Positions 2,001-28,890 of a stretch of DNA of 37,990 nucleotides are shown here, piece by piece. A program made the translations under genes and the position numbers. The notes under the pieces are model-generated. The model was not told where the DNA came from and made no database searches. It saw nothing but the letters and a program-made list of their open reading frames with translations. This stretch comes from a virus: the IMG/VR virus record IMGVR_UViG_3300017593_000132, positions 1 to 37,990 of that record; one strand, written 5' to 3'. How positions within the stretch are numbered: the stretch's first letter is position 1; each line of letters starts with the position of its first letter.

Positions 2001-5000
2001 CGTTTGGATTCCGGGCTGGGGGTTCCTGTGATCAGCCCGCGCGCGGTGTCGACAGGGCCGGTGGGCGCAATCCTGTCCTCGGCCATCCCGGCTATGTACC
2101 CCAAAGGCCTCGCAATGGCGGTTGCCGGCAGCCCAGTCGTCAGCGAGATCAGGGTCGCGGTGTCGCGCACCGCTGCACGCACACTGCCCTCCCCGATCGC
2201 GGCCTTGTAGATCTCCACCGGCGCCTTGACCGCGCTCTCGATCATCGAGACCGCCGGCGACGTGCTGATGCGGTCGTCGTAGGGCTTCTTGTTGAAGGTG
2301 TTGATCATGGCGTTGGCCGCCTGCCCCACGCCGGGGATCATCGCCAGGCCGGCCTTCACGTTGCCCATGAGCAGCACCGACGTGAGCCAGTCGTCCAGCG
2401 TGCTGCCGTCCTTGTCCTCGTCGTCGGGCCCGCCCTTGAAAGCCTGCGCGATCATCTCAGCCATCATGTTCGGCACCAGGAAGCCCAGCACGAAGATGTA
2501 GAGCCCGCGCCCCATACCGCGGCGCAGCCCGAGCTCGTGGAAGTTGCGCGAGAACTCGGTGCCCAGCAGGTTGGCCTGCATGTTGAAGTAGCCCGCGAAC
2601 TGCGTGAACATGCGCACGAAGGCGTTGCCGGTCTCGATGCGCGAGACGTCCTCTGGCAGCGTCGAGCCCTGGGTCTGCCGGACCACCGAGTCAGCCAGGC
2701 GCACCGAGTCGGCCGAGCTGTGGCCCTGCTCGAGCGCCTGGTTGTAGGCGCCGTTCCAGACGATCGGGCCCATGAAGTTGTCGACCGCCGACTGCATGAA
2801 GTAGGCGTGCTTCGCGGTCCAGTTCTGGGCCTTCTCGTAGACGCTGGGGTTCAGCAGGATGTCGTTGATCGCGTCGTTCATCTGCGCGACCTCGTTGTCC
2901 ATGCGCGTGGCCATGTACGTCGAGGCCTCGGCCACCGCGCGCGCGGTCTGGCGCGGCGCCATGATCGACTGCGCAAGCGCCTCGACAAGGTGGCGTGGGC
3001 GCACCTTCACGGCCGCGATGCTGAAGCCGGTGATCTGCTGCGCGGTGTTCGAGACGTTGGCGAACATGGCCGCGATGCCGGCGCGCTGGCGCGCCTTGCT
3101 AAAGAAGCGCAGCAGCCCGTTGTCGCCCGGCACCGCCTGCTCGACGGTCTGCCGCGCGGCGCGGTTCAGCCAAGGCGTGAGCAGGCCGTCGAAGGCCGTG
3201 GGGTCGATGCGGTGCAGCGGCTCGGCCACGTCCTTGTGGCCCAGCACGCGGCGCACGTCGCGCACCGGCTGCTCGAGGTGCGAGAACAGCAGCACCTTGT
3301 CGATGTGGGTCGACAGCGTGCGCAGGTCCAGCAGCAGCGGCCGGTTGTACTCCACGCGCGCCTTCGTGAAACCCTTGGCCGTCGACGGGAAGGCATAGGC
3401 CAGCGTCTGGTTCTCGCCCTCCTGCAGCGCGCGTGTGGCCGACTCGCGCACGACCTCGGCATCGGTCATGGCCGGCACGTAGCCGCCGCGGTAGGTGCCG
3501 AACTTGTTGCTGAAGCTGTTGGCCGTGACCTCGTCGAAGTACCGCCCGAACACGTCGCGGTGCGCGCGCTGCGCAAGCGCCTTGGTCTGCTCGAGCAGGT
3601 CCCAGACGCCCTGGGCGAAGTCGAAGTCGGCCTTGGTCAGCACGCCCTGGTCGATCATCCGGGCGACGAAGCCGTCCCAGCGCCGCGTATCGAGATCGCC
3701 CGTTACGTCGCTCTCGGTGGCCCAGCCGCGGCCCAGGAGCAGCTTGCGCTTGTTGCTCTCGTTGCCGGTGTGCAGGATCGCGTGCAGGATCTCGGCCTTG
3801 CCGCTGCCGCCGCGCGAGAACCCGAAGGTGTAGCCCAGCTCAGGCGCGGCGATGCGCGAGGGCGCCAGATCCACGGTCTGCAGCAGGTCTCGGTACTGGC
3901 GGATGAACCTCGCCTTGTCGGCCCGGTAGCGGTCTGCGGCCTCCTTCACCGGCTGCCAGATGTACTTCCGGAAAGGCCCCATCTCCTCGGTGCCGTCCTT
4001 CACTCCGACCCAGGACTCGACCCGGCGCAGCGCCGCGCGCGCGGTCTGCAGGCGCGTGAGGCGCCGTTCGGCATCCGTCACGGCCTGGCCCTCGCCGGCG
4101 ACGCGCGCCGGCACGCCGATCTCGTGCAGCCGCGTGGACAGCTCCGCCTGAATCTGGGCGCGGTCGACCAGCTTGCCGTCGATCTCGACCTGGCGCGAGC
4201 GCCGCGCCATGTGCCACAGGCCGCGGATCTCCTCGGCCAGGCCACGGAACTCCTCGACCGTCATCTCGGACACCGGCTTGGCGCCGGCGGTCAGCGCGTC
4301 GATTTTGTCGCGCAGCACCTCGTACATGGCCGGGTCGTCGTTCGCCATCGTCTCGAGGTAGCGCTGGGCCGGATCGCCCTTCGTGCCGATCCCGTACTCA
4401 GCCAGGACAGCGCGCGCGGCCTGCACGGTGCCCACGTCGCGAGTCTCGCCGATCTTCTTGATCGGGCGGCCGATGATCTTCTTGAATAGCTCGTTGGCCG
4501 CGGCAATCTCGGCCTGCGCCTCGTAGGCCGCCTTGGCCGCGAAGTTGTTCACCAGCTGGTTGCGCTTGTGCATCGCGGCCTCGGCCGTGTCGCCCAGGGC
4601 CTTCACAGCGAGCCGCGCGCTGCGCGCCTCGGCCGCGGCGTACTGCTTCGGCCGCAGGTTCTTCAGCTTCACCCGCGCCACCACGCCCTGCGCGAACTCG
4701 CGCGCCGCGCGCGCCATCACGTCGACGGTGCCGCCGGTGTAGAGGCTGTCGCTGGTCTCGCGCACCTTCGTAGCCTTGGCCAGCGCCTTGAGTTCGGCCG
4801 CGATGACCCGGGCGCGCAGCTCGTTGTGCACGGCCTCGTCGGCCGCGCGCTCAAGCGCATCGCGGCTGGCGATATCGCCGTGCTGCTCAAGCATGCGCTG
4901 GTCGGTGATCTGGTCGATCAGCCGCGCTGGCGGCTCGGCGGCCGCGAGCGCCGCGATCAGCTCCTGCCCGCTCTCGTAGCCGAACAGGTCGGCCACGATG

Positions 5001-25247: not shown

Positions 25248-25757
25248 TCACAGGGTGTTTCCTTCATGGAGAAGTCGTTTTGCCGACAGGTAGGCAGAGT
25301 GCGCGAGCTCAGGCGTGGGAAACGTACCCAGGTACTTCTGCTTTCCCGCGACTTTGATCACGGCGCGGAACCCCGTCTTGTCGCGAGCGACGCCCAGCAG
25401 CCCCGATCGGTTGTCCGAACGGGCTCGCCGAATGTTCTGCAAATTCACATTCGCTGTGACATCTCGCAAGTTGCAGAGCCTGTTGTCAGCCTTGTTTCCG
25501 TTGATGTGGTCGATGCTCCGCGTCGGCCAAGCTCCATGCGCAAGCAGCCATGCCAAGCGATGTGCTCGATGGAACCGCCCATCGATGCAAATTCGGATGT
25601 ACCCACCCGCCTCAATAGCACCGGCAATGCTTCCGGCGCGTGCGCGACTTCCGTTAGACACCCGCCAACGGATAACTCCATCGGCAGGGTCATAGACCAA
25701 GAGGGCCCGAGCGCGCTCAAGCGTCAGCATGCGCGGTTCGGTACACGTGTCACGCAT
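25248..25757 (-). CDS. HNH endonuclease with AP2 DNA-binding domain (homing-type)
   Basis: 169 residues from the ATG at 25757 (AGGGG upstream). An N-terminal section (LTLERARALLVYDPADGVIR with WRV) resembles the pre-HNH strand of phage endonucleases. The HNH core is AHRLAWLLAHGAWP followed by IDHINGNKADNRLCNLRDV, giving D-H, N and N metal and catalytic residues. The C-terminus GVARDKTGFRAVIKVAGKQ then YLGTFPTPELAHSAYL is an AP2 domain. Typical free-standing homing endonuclease. It overlaps the next HNH gene's stop by 8 nt. Confidence 0.9.
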   Translation of the reverse strand: MRDTCTEPRMLTLERARALLVYDPADGVIRWRVSNGSRARAGSIAGAIEAGGYIRICIDGRFHRAHRLAWLLAHGAWPTRSIDHINGNKADNRLCNLRDVTANVNLQNIRRARSDNRSGLLGVARDKTGFRAVIKVAGKQKYLGTFPTPELAHSAYLSAKRLLHEGNTL

Positions 25758-26256
25758 TGGCGCCCCTGCCCTGAAGTTGGTGGTACGGGCTGCTGAAGTC
25801 GTGACGGAACTCGTTGCGCTTGAGCATGCGGACGTAGGCCTCGCTGACGTCCCAGCGCTTCGCGAGCACCTCGGTACGCTCCTCCGACGTGCGGATGTCG
25901 AGCACGCCGGCATCACTCAGCTTGCTCGACTTGCGCTTGCCGGCCGCCACGCGCGCCGCGCGCGCAATGGAGTTGTGGCGCTTGTTCGTGCGGGAGACCA
26001 GATGCGAGCGCGTCACCGGCACGATGTGCTCGTGGTTCAGGCAGTTCGCGTTTTCGCAGCTGACCGAAGCCACCCGGTCGGACTGCCATGCGCGGCCGTG
26101 GGCGTGCTCCCACACCACGCGGCGCAGCGACAACTGCTTCTGCGCGACTGTCGCGACCGGCCCGCGGTCGTTGATCGCGCCGGGCCAGAGCAGGCAATCC
26201 CCCTCCTCCACGCAGCGGGAGCGGATCTTGTCCATTAGGTAGGCGCCCTCGTTCAC
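25750..26256 (-). CDS. HNH endonuclease with C-terminal HTH
   Basis: 168 residues. Residues about 15-95 carry the HNH-type core: CLLWPGAINDRGP, RRVVWEHAHGR, and C-(4)-CLNHEHIVPVTRSHLV, as in phage HNH_3-like enzymes with His and Asn ligands. The C-terminal part KLSDAGVLDIRTSEERTEVL then AKRWDVSEAYVRMLKRNEFR is a helix-turn-helix. Start is GTG at 26256 in a GTGA overlap, with GGAGG 9-13 nt upstream. Second enzyme of a tandem homing-type pair. Confidence 0.82.
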   Translation of the reverse strand: MNEGAYLMDKIRSRCVEEGDCLLWPGAINDRGPVATVAQKQLSLRRVVWEHAHGRAWQSDRVASVSCENANCLNHEHIVPVTRSHLVSRTNKRHNSIARAARVAAGKRKSSKLSDAGVLDIRTSEERTEVLAKRWDVSEAYVRMLKRNEFRHDFSSPYHQLQGRGANA

Positions 26257-27067: not shown

Positions 27068-27797
27068 CGATGACCTCCTGACGGTCCATGTCGAAGATGG
27101 CGGCGGCTGCGCCGGCGTGCTTGGGGGCGCCGAAGGACTGGCGGGAAGCAGCCGGCGCGCGCTCCTCGCGCACCCAGTTGCGCCAGGTCGCCAGCCAATC
27201 GAGCTTGCGGGCCGCGGCGCCTCCCTTGCCGTGCCAGTAGTCGGCAAACTTGTCGGCTACCCGCTGCGGGTCGAGGTCAGGCCGTTCGGCCTTCGCCCAG
27301 TCCGCCCACTCGACGGGAAGCTCGAAGGGCTTGGGCAAGCGCGAAGCGCGCCCCTCTGCTGAACGTAGTGAAGCAGAGGTATCTGAGCTATGAGGAGCTT
27401 TCGACCCGGGTTCGTCTTGGGTTTGCTCTTGGTTATCTACAGAAAACCCACTGGGTTTCTCTTGGGTTTGTTTTCTGGGTCTTCCACCCTTTTTCCCGTT
27501 CAACCTAGCGGCTTCGATGGCGGGCGCCGCTTCGGCGATCTCCTCCGACGCGCGGCCGTTGTGCCTCAGTCCATCCGAGGCGATGGGGAAGTGGAGATCG
27601 GCCACGAACCTCACCGCAGCCTGCTCGGCCTTGTCCATGGCCCGGCAGATGCGATAGAGCTCCACGAAGTCGGCCGGCAGCCCCTGCTCGGTCGTGTAGA
27701 GCTCGTCCAGCAGGAGCGTGTAGGCCCCGTGCTGCGCGAGCGTAAGCCGTGCAGTTTTCTTGCCGTAGTCGGCCGGATAGCGCTTGTAGTAGTTCAA
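27060..27797 (-). CDS. DUF1376-domain replication protein (initiator-like)
   Basis: 245 residues. The N-terminal 95 residues NYYKRYPADYGKKTARLTLA, QHGAYTLLLDELYTTEQGLP and AVRFVADLHFPIASDGLRHNGR form the DUF1376 domain, typical of phage replication initiators. A basic linker follows (NGKKGGRPRKQTQ, AT-hook-like) with a Ser/Gln-rich low-complexity stretch, then a C-terminal helical domain (VADKFADYWHGKGGAAARKL with WLATWRNWV) like that of phage O-type or DnaT-like proteins. The start is taken as TTG at 27797 (TTGA overlap, GGAAGA upstream); GTG at 27809 is the alternative. Confidence 0.8.
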   Translation of the reverse strand: MNYYKRYPADYGKKTARLTLAQHGAYTLLLDELYTTEQGLPADFVELYRICRAMDKAEQAAVRFVADLHFPIASDGLRHNGRASEEIAEAAPAIEAARLNGKKGGRPRKQTQEKPSGFSVDNQEQTQDEPGSKAPHSSDTSASLRSAEGRASRLPKPFELPVEWADWAKAERPDLDPQRVADKFADYWHGKGGAAARKLDWLATWRNWVREERAPAASRQSFGAPKHAGAAAAIFDMDRQEVIDA

Positions 27798-28108
27798 AGG
27801 ATCTTCCACCGAACCACGGGATGGCTGTGTGTCTTCTCGCTGGCCGCGCGCTGGTAGCCGTCGAACTCGATCAGGCCCAGGTTCTTCACCGCGGTGGTGA
27901 TGGCGCCCCAGGACTGGTGGGACGATGGGTGGTTGACCGCGACGTGGCGGAACTCCTCCATCGTCATGTGCGTGGCGCCAGAGGCCTTGCGGGTGGCGAG
28001 CCAGGCTCGGAGCTCGACCACCACCAGCTCTTTCCACTCGACGTTGACATCGAGGGTCAGCTGCTGGCCGGCGAGCTTTGCGGCCTCGGACCGGGCAGCA
28101 CTGAGCAT
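27794..28108 (-). CDS. Conserved phage winged-helix-like protein in the replication module
   Basis: 104 residues from the ATG at 28108 (TGATG overlap with the upstream stop). The pattern VELRAWLATRKASGATHMTMEEFR, split at helix boundaries, then HPSSHQSWGAITTAVKNLGL and THSHPVVRWKI, is one I know from hypothetical proteins beside phage replication genes. It looks like a winged helix. Possible replication accessory or regulator. Confidence 0.72.
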   Translation of the reverse strand: MLSAARSEAAKLAGQQLTLDVNVEWKELVVVELRAWLATRKASGATHMTMEEFRHVAVNHPSSHQSWGAITTAVKNLGLIEFDGYQRAASEKTHSHPVVRWKIL

Positions 28109-28425
28109 CAGGCGCCCTCCGCGGGAGCAGAAATATCGACGGCGCGCGCGTGCAGCATGGAAAGGTGCTGGCAGTAGTCGAGCGTCCAAACGGAAGCGCG
28201 ATCGAGCTCCGCCAGGTAGCCCTCGAGAACGTCAGGCTTCATGGTGACGTTCTCCGCCTTCGACTGGATGATCTCCAGCAACTGAATGTAGGCGCGCGTT
28301 CGCACAACGCCCCAATCCGGATAGTCTGCGGGCATCGCCTTCGATAGAACGGATGCCCGAGCTCGCGCGGCTACGAGCCGCTGGGCATCGGCGATCTTCT
28401 TGGCTTCTCTCGCCTCCCGGCGCAC
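28108..28425 (-). CDS. Helical hypothetical protein; its natural start appears frame-shifted by a 13-bp repeat
   Basis: 105 residues from a GTG at 28425 without a ribosome site. Sequence: a basic helix (REAREAKKIADAQRLVAARA), a middle PADYPDWGVVRTRAYIQLLE and a helical end. The open frame continues upstream through the tandem repeat to a TAG near 28545 but has no usual start codon. An ATG with AAGGA at 28504 would be in frame with this body if the 13-bp unit were present three times; with the four present it opens a 90-codon frame instead. The protein may therefore be switched off, expressed from the weak GTG, or rescued by frameshifting. Confidence 0.6.
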   Translation of the reverse strand: MRREAREAKKIADAQRLVAARARASVLSKAMPADYPDWGVVRTRAYIQLLEIIQSKAENVTMKPDVLEGYLAELDRASVWTLDYCQHLSMLHARAVDISAPAEGA

Positions 28426-28446
28426 CTTGCGATCGGCCGCAAGCTG

Positions 28447-28498
28447 AGCGGTCTTGCTGAGCGGTCTTGCTGAGCGGTCTTGCTGAGCGGTCTTGCTG
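28447..28498 (-). repeat. 13-bp tandem repeat, four perfect copies, at the start of a gene
   Basis: On the minus strand CAGCAAGACCGCT occurs four times in direct succession, followed by a partial CAGC, starting two codons after the ATG at 28504. Thirteen is not a multiple of three, so every gain or loss of a unit changes the reading frame. This makes it a candidate slipped-strand switch. Confidence 0.9.
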
Positions 28499-28539
28499 TT
28501 CCATGGAGTGTCCTTCCGTGCGGCCGGCGCCCCTTCGGG

Positions 28540-28890
28540 CTATGCCAACGCTTTGAGCGCCTGCATTTCTTCGAGGGGATTCAGTTGAGCGTTCTGTGCA
28601 TGCCATTGGGAAATTGCAGTGTTCCCGCACACCCCCTCGAATACCTTCACCGCCCATCCAGGCAAGTCGCGCTTGGTCTTCGCGTCTGCCTTGATGTAGC
28701 AAGTGATGTGAGACGAATACAGCCCTGTCTCCTGCGCAAGCGTGCGCTTGGACATCTTCTTCACGCGCCTCAGGTCCCAGCAAAGCATTACTGCGTCTCG
28801 ATAGGTCTTGCAGGCCGCGACAAGCCGCGGGTCCGCTATTCCTGGTGCGTTCAATCGGCCGAATACGCCGGGGATGTGCATCTGTTCCAT
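28540..28890 (-). CDS. CII-like / XRE-type HTH regulator
   Basis: 116 residues from the ATG at 28890 (AGAGG upstream). YRDAVMLCWDLRRVKKMSKR then TLAQETGLYSSHITCYIKAD is a helix-turn-helix, followed by KRDLPGWAVKVFEGVCGNTA and ISQWHAQNAQL, a pattern repeated in phage proteins located after cro. By position (first DNA-binding gene after Cro on the leftward early operon) it may take the role of CII. The open frame extends 67 codons upstream in frame, but there is no better start there. Confidence 0.75.
   Translation of the reverse strand: MEQMHIPGVFGRLNAPGIADPRLVAACKTYRDAVMLCWDLRRVKKMSKRTLAQETGLYSSHITCYIKADAKTKRDLPGWAVKVFEGVCGNTAISQWHAQNAQLNPLEEMQALKALA

Follow-up and report, generated by a model that had tools for sequence, protein, structure and literature searches.

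A frame-breaking 13-bp tandem repeat at the start of a small early gene in a temperate tailed phage, with a plausible but unproven role in phase variation

The sequence examined was the IMG/VR virus record IMGVR_UViG_3300017593_000132 (positions 1 to 37,990), and the whole of this 37,990-bp stretch is called the window below. The window encodes a repressor, NinB, NinG, a terminase and tail genes, and represents a temperate tailed phage. Its early operon lies on the minus strand and runs from a gene in the CII position to an ATG at 28504 with a tandem array, a coding body, a gene overlapping the body, a DUF1376/primosomal gene and a weakly P-loader-like gene. The features of this region, in the order of transcription, were as follows.

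28540 to 28890, minus strand: preceding gene, occupying the CII position and encoding a small protein that resembles a regulator (judged from its place and appearance only; no family match)
28111 to 28539, minus strand: full open extent of the body frame in the window, starting where the preceding gene stops
28502 to 28504, minus strand: ATG start codon, preceded by an AAGGA ribosome site at 6-nt spacing
28232 to 28504, minus strand: 90-codon frame presently opened by this ATG, of non-coding composition after the array
28443 to 28498, minus strand: perfect 13-bp tandem array, 4.3 copies of CAGCAAGACCGCT (TRF and sequence inspection)
28108 to 28425, minus strand: 105-aa body frame, of coding-like composition and predicted to form three helices; it starts with a GTG that lacks a ribosome site, and its TGA overlaps the next gene's ATG (TGATG)
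27794 to 28108, minus strand: next gene after the body, its start overlapping the body's stop; homologues in the related loci L007, L008 and L020
27060 to 27797, minus strand: gene for a DUF1376/primosomal-type replication protein

The same nine bases, ATGGAACAG, open both the CII-position gene (28882-28890) and the array gene (28496-28504). Elsewhere in the early operon, HNH-endonuclease family matches were obtained in two adjacent, partly overlapping open reading frames (25251-25916 and 25753-26256).

The 13-bp array was the top-scoring tandem repeat of the window by TRF (score 112; runner-up 66). On the minus strand its four full copies span 28447-28498, and the rest of the window contains no copy with one mismatch or fewer. 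The longest perfect self-match at lags of 4-40 was 43 nt (lag 13, at 28443), against a maximum of 14 nt in 40 first-order Markov simulations, and the array is far beyond chance. It is 56 bp long, lies in the 5' part of the coding region and begins directly after ATG GAA, i.e. after codon 2, so that TRF and the coordinates both agree with an earlier note on this DNA, which had placed four perfect copies two codons into the gene. Because the array is perfect and tandem and its unit is not a multiple of three, slippage would change the reading frame. RNA structure around the array was unremarkable (z 0.26), and neither a promoter nor a terminator was found within it.

The array was confined to one phage lineage among the viral and bacterial contigs searched. 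The only other record carrying it, IMGVR_UViG_3300017593_000167, likewise has 4.3 copies; it matches the window at 100% identity along their 13,833-bp overlap, and is therefore not an independent sample. No copy-number variant was seen in the window and this one identical, non-independent record, and bacterial genome contigs contained no two tandem copies of the 13-mer.

The ribosome site which the earlier note had described as good was borne out at the ATG of 28504, with a 5-nt Shine-Dalgarno match at 6-nt spacing and a duplex of -5.7 kcal/mol; among all the ATGs of the window, just 5.9% have a match of at least 5 nt. At the GTG of 28425 there was no ribosome-site match, and the duplex was -1.7 kcal/mol. 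The ATG is 35 nt from the stop of the preceding gene and the GTG about 115 nt from it, and the two junctions downstream in the operon overlap, unlike the gap before the GTG. Upstream of this GTG, the open body frame (28111 to 28539) contains no ATG, GTG, TTG or CTG.

With four copies the distance from the ATG to the GTG is 79 nt, the ATG opens the 90-codon frame with its stop at 28232, and the body frame is offset by +1; with three copies the distance is 66 nt, which is in frame. The coordinates thus uphold the expectation that three copies would give an in-frame 127-aa protein and four a separate frame. The ATG is in frame with the body at copy numbers of 0, 3 and 6; at 1 and 4 it opens the frame found here, and at 2 and 5 a third frame, which stops at 28371. 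By this arithmetic one copy-number class connects the good start to the coding body. The claim that each gain or loss of a unit toggles the gene therefore held for the change of frame but not for a toggle between two states, since the cycle has three states, in which going from four copies to three restores the frame and going from four to five does not.

Because one and four copies share a frame, a single-copy ancestor would also be out of frame, and this identity weakens the case for a switch. Tandem arrays usually arise by growth from a single copy, and the simplest birth of this array would have bypassed an in-frame gene; either the ATG was never the start of the body, or the array passed through an in-frame number as it grew, or a further indel occurred. 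Confidence in a switch was kept limited chiefly on account of this arithmetic.

Coding potential was scored with codon usage trained on the long open reading frames of the window, which were picked mechanically and are in part probably spurious, so that the figures are indicative. The body frame scored +0.29 bits/codon, or +0.31 if prolonged up to the array, against -0.25 bits/codon for the post-array part of the frame that the ATG now opens. The body frame looks coding and the frame presently entered does not; the natural reading is that the gene starts at the ATG of 28504 and that the present array breaks its frame. Searches of genome and viral contigs, phages, plasmids, PHROGs, Pfam, NCBIfam and PDB sequences returned only the identical record and chance matches to the body, and no homologue with an intact N-terminus or otherwise intact form was found among them. 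One candidate homologue, in locus L019, was rejected as a chance helical match within an 886-aa open reading frame. A single-sequence fold of the body gave three helices (pLDDT 71.5), with no significant structural match. Programmed frameshifting was also considered and rejected: the body would require a +1 shift, and the sequence showed neither a classical slippery site nor a stop-coupled +1 site.

Related viral loci (n = 80) were gathered by a terminase search. In the repeat survey of the fetched loci (1.46 Mb in all, including duplicates of the array locus), every other perfect array that reached at least 2.5 copies and a 26-nt self-match had a period divisible by three. The gene content of the operon slot varies between relatives. 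Two of them, L007 and L020, share the next gene of the window (62-67% identity), and upstream of it their slot holds a different small gene, with no detectable homology to the body. In L007 this gene has a C9 tract near its start (3697-3705) and is in frame (102 aa). In L020 the tract is C10 (4433-4442), the start is out of frame, and the open reading frame from this start runs on into the next gene as an in-frame fusion of 217 aa. C or G runs of at least nine numbered only five in 1.40 Mb (relatives and window), two of which are these tracts, at an orthologous position in the same slot. Downstream of the C tract dN/dS between the two slot genes was 0.10, with no selection apparent in the shifted frames, and after the tract the gene appears from this comparison to be under purifying selection. 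The parallel with the window is one of position and architecture, namely a repeat in a poorly structured N-terminus followed by a small helical body (low-confidence models). The C10 of L020 may be due to phase variation, to a recent mutation or to a homopolymer sequencing error of the type put right by Sanger reads in PMC3670811; the C9/C10 tract makes slippage control of the operon slot more credible, with sequencing error as a possible explanation of C10. Directly before the tract (L007 3636-3695; L020 4372-4431) the DNA was 93% conserved over 57 nt, compared with 88% in the rest of the slot gene and 78% in the upstream gene, and this stretch is a possible DNA or RNA element.

The strongest rival explanation, unlikely but to be taken seriously, is that the 105-aa body is made from the GTG of 28425 and the array lies in the leader, where its copy number scarcely matters. 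This GTG is the sole usual start upstream in the body frame, the arrangement would be the same for four copies and for a one-copy ancestor, and several other open reading frames of the window also start without a ribosome site. Translation from the GTG has, however, to do without the ribosome site and with the weaker duplex, places a gap of about 115 nt within a tight operon, and leaves the good site of the ATG unexplained. Next comes neutral breakage, likewise on the unlikely side, by which a chance, selectively neutral slippage expansion broke a dispensable small gene in this lineage. The confinement of the array to one lineage agrees with it, and the slot differs in gene content among relatives as dispensable cargo would; on the other hand, the body has kept a coding composition without a stop, and the same slot in relatives holds another frame-breaking repeat with purifying selection.

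That the four copies are an assembly error is highly improbable. The assembly is metagenomic and the two records are not independent, but the 56-bp array fits within an ordinary read, and assemblers are more prone to collapse repeats of this sort than to add copies. Improbable too is that the repeats are iterons or operators, serving as DNA sites of a replication or regulatory protein, even though perfect direct repeats are typical of iterons and the array lies within the early/replication operon. Single or one-mismatch copies are absent from the rest of the window, the 13-bp spacing is not helically phased, and the array is GC-rich (local GC about 0.63-0.65); an AT-rich, repeat-bearing stretch near 27400-27480 in the DUF1376 gene suits an origin better. 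Iterons are expected in or beside the initiator gene together with an AT-rich stretch, and here the array lies outside the DUF1376 gene, with the AT-rich stretch about 1 kb off.

A real gene at the ATG of 28504, out of frame here, is supported by the sequence, the ribosome site and the composition. The frame-breaking repeat is real; that it makes this a phase-variable early phage gene is plausible, if unproven, at somewhat under an even chance. According to this preferred reading, a small early gene would begin at the ATG, and the array after codon 2 would throw it out of frame in the phage that was sampled. Replication slippage would alter the copy number and hence the frame, with three or six copies giving a protein of 127 aa or longer and four or five giving no body. 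The role would likely be stochastic on/off expression, by simple-sequence-repeat phase variation, of a small helical protein made just before the replication proteins. The phase switch proposed in the earlier note gained from the coding-like body, the ribosome site and the same-slot C9/C10 parallel, and lost from the frame shared by the present array and a one-copy ancestor. A broader and distinctly doubtful proposal is that of a positional contingency slot, in which whichever small gene follows the CII-like regulator and precedes the replication genes would be controlled by a frame-switching repeat (the 13-mer array in the window, poly-C in two relatives), so that, as lytic replication begins, each phage population would contain both expressers and non-expressers. 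Should a switch of this kind operate in an early phage gene, the population would be hedging its lytic programme by genetic means.

In bacteria, phase variation through slippage at repeats is a classic strategy. The simple-sequence-repeat contingency loci of Neisseria, Haemophilus and Campylobacter resemble the present locus in having, just past the start codon, a perfect tandem repeat whose unit is not a multiple of three and which decides whether a coding body is read in frame; the present array differs in its place in a phage early operon and its longer 13-bp unit, and is a putative switch only. A limited literature search, mostly at the level of titles and abstracts, turned up no account of a phage gene of the early or replication region being controlled by repeat slippage. 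Genomes of N4-like phages contain homopolymeric tracts for which slippage-based regulation was suggested, and Sanger data removed apparent frameshifts from the first 454 assemblies of these genomes (PMC3670811). These tracts are likewise frame-affecting repeats in phage DNA, but are single-base and occur in podoviruses.

Origin iterons inside lambda-type O genes share with the array the short direct repeats and the replication region, whereas the array is outside the initiator gene and has a 13-bp unit that is not a multiple of three. A better fit to such iterons is an in-frame 24-bp array of relatives, CCCAAAAACGGGATGTTGAATGAT, located within a replication-type gene in L083 (4623-4708) and in many other loci among L055-L092. 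It has 2.6 copies in most loci and 3.6 in L083, and these arrays are likely to be origin iterons of varying copy number. In the window itself, positions 27380-27520 inside the DUF1376 gene are AT-rich and carry an 18-bp direct repeat 45 bp apart, and this stretch is a candidate replication origin.
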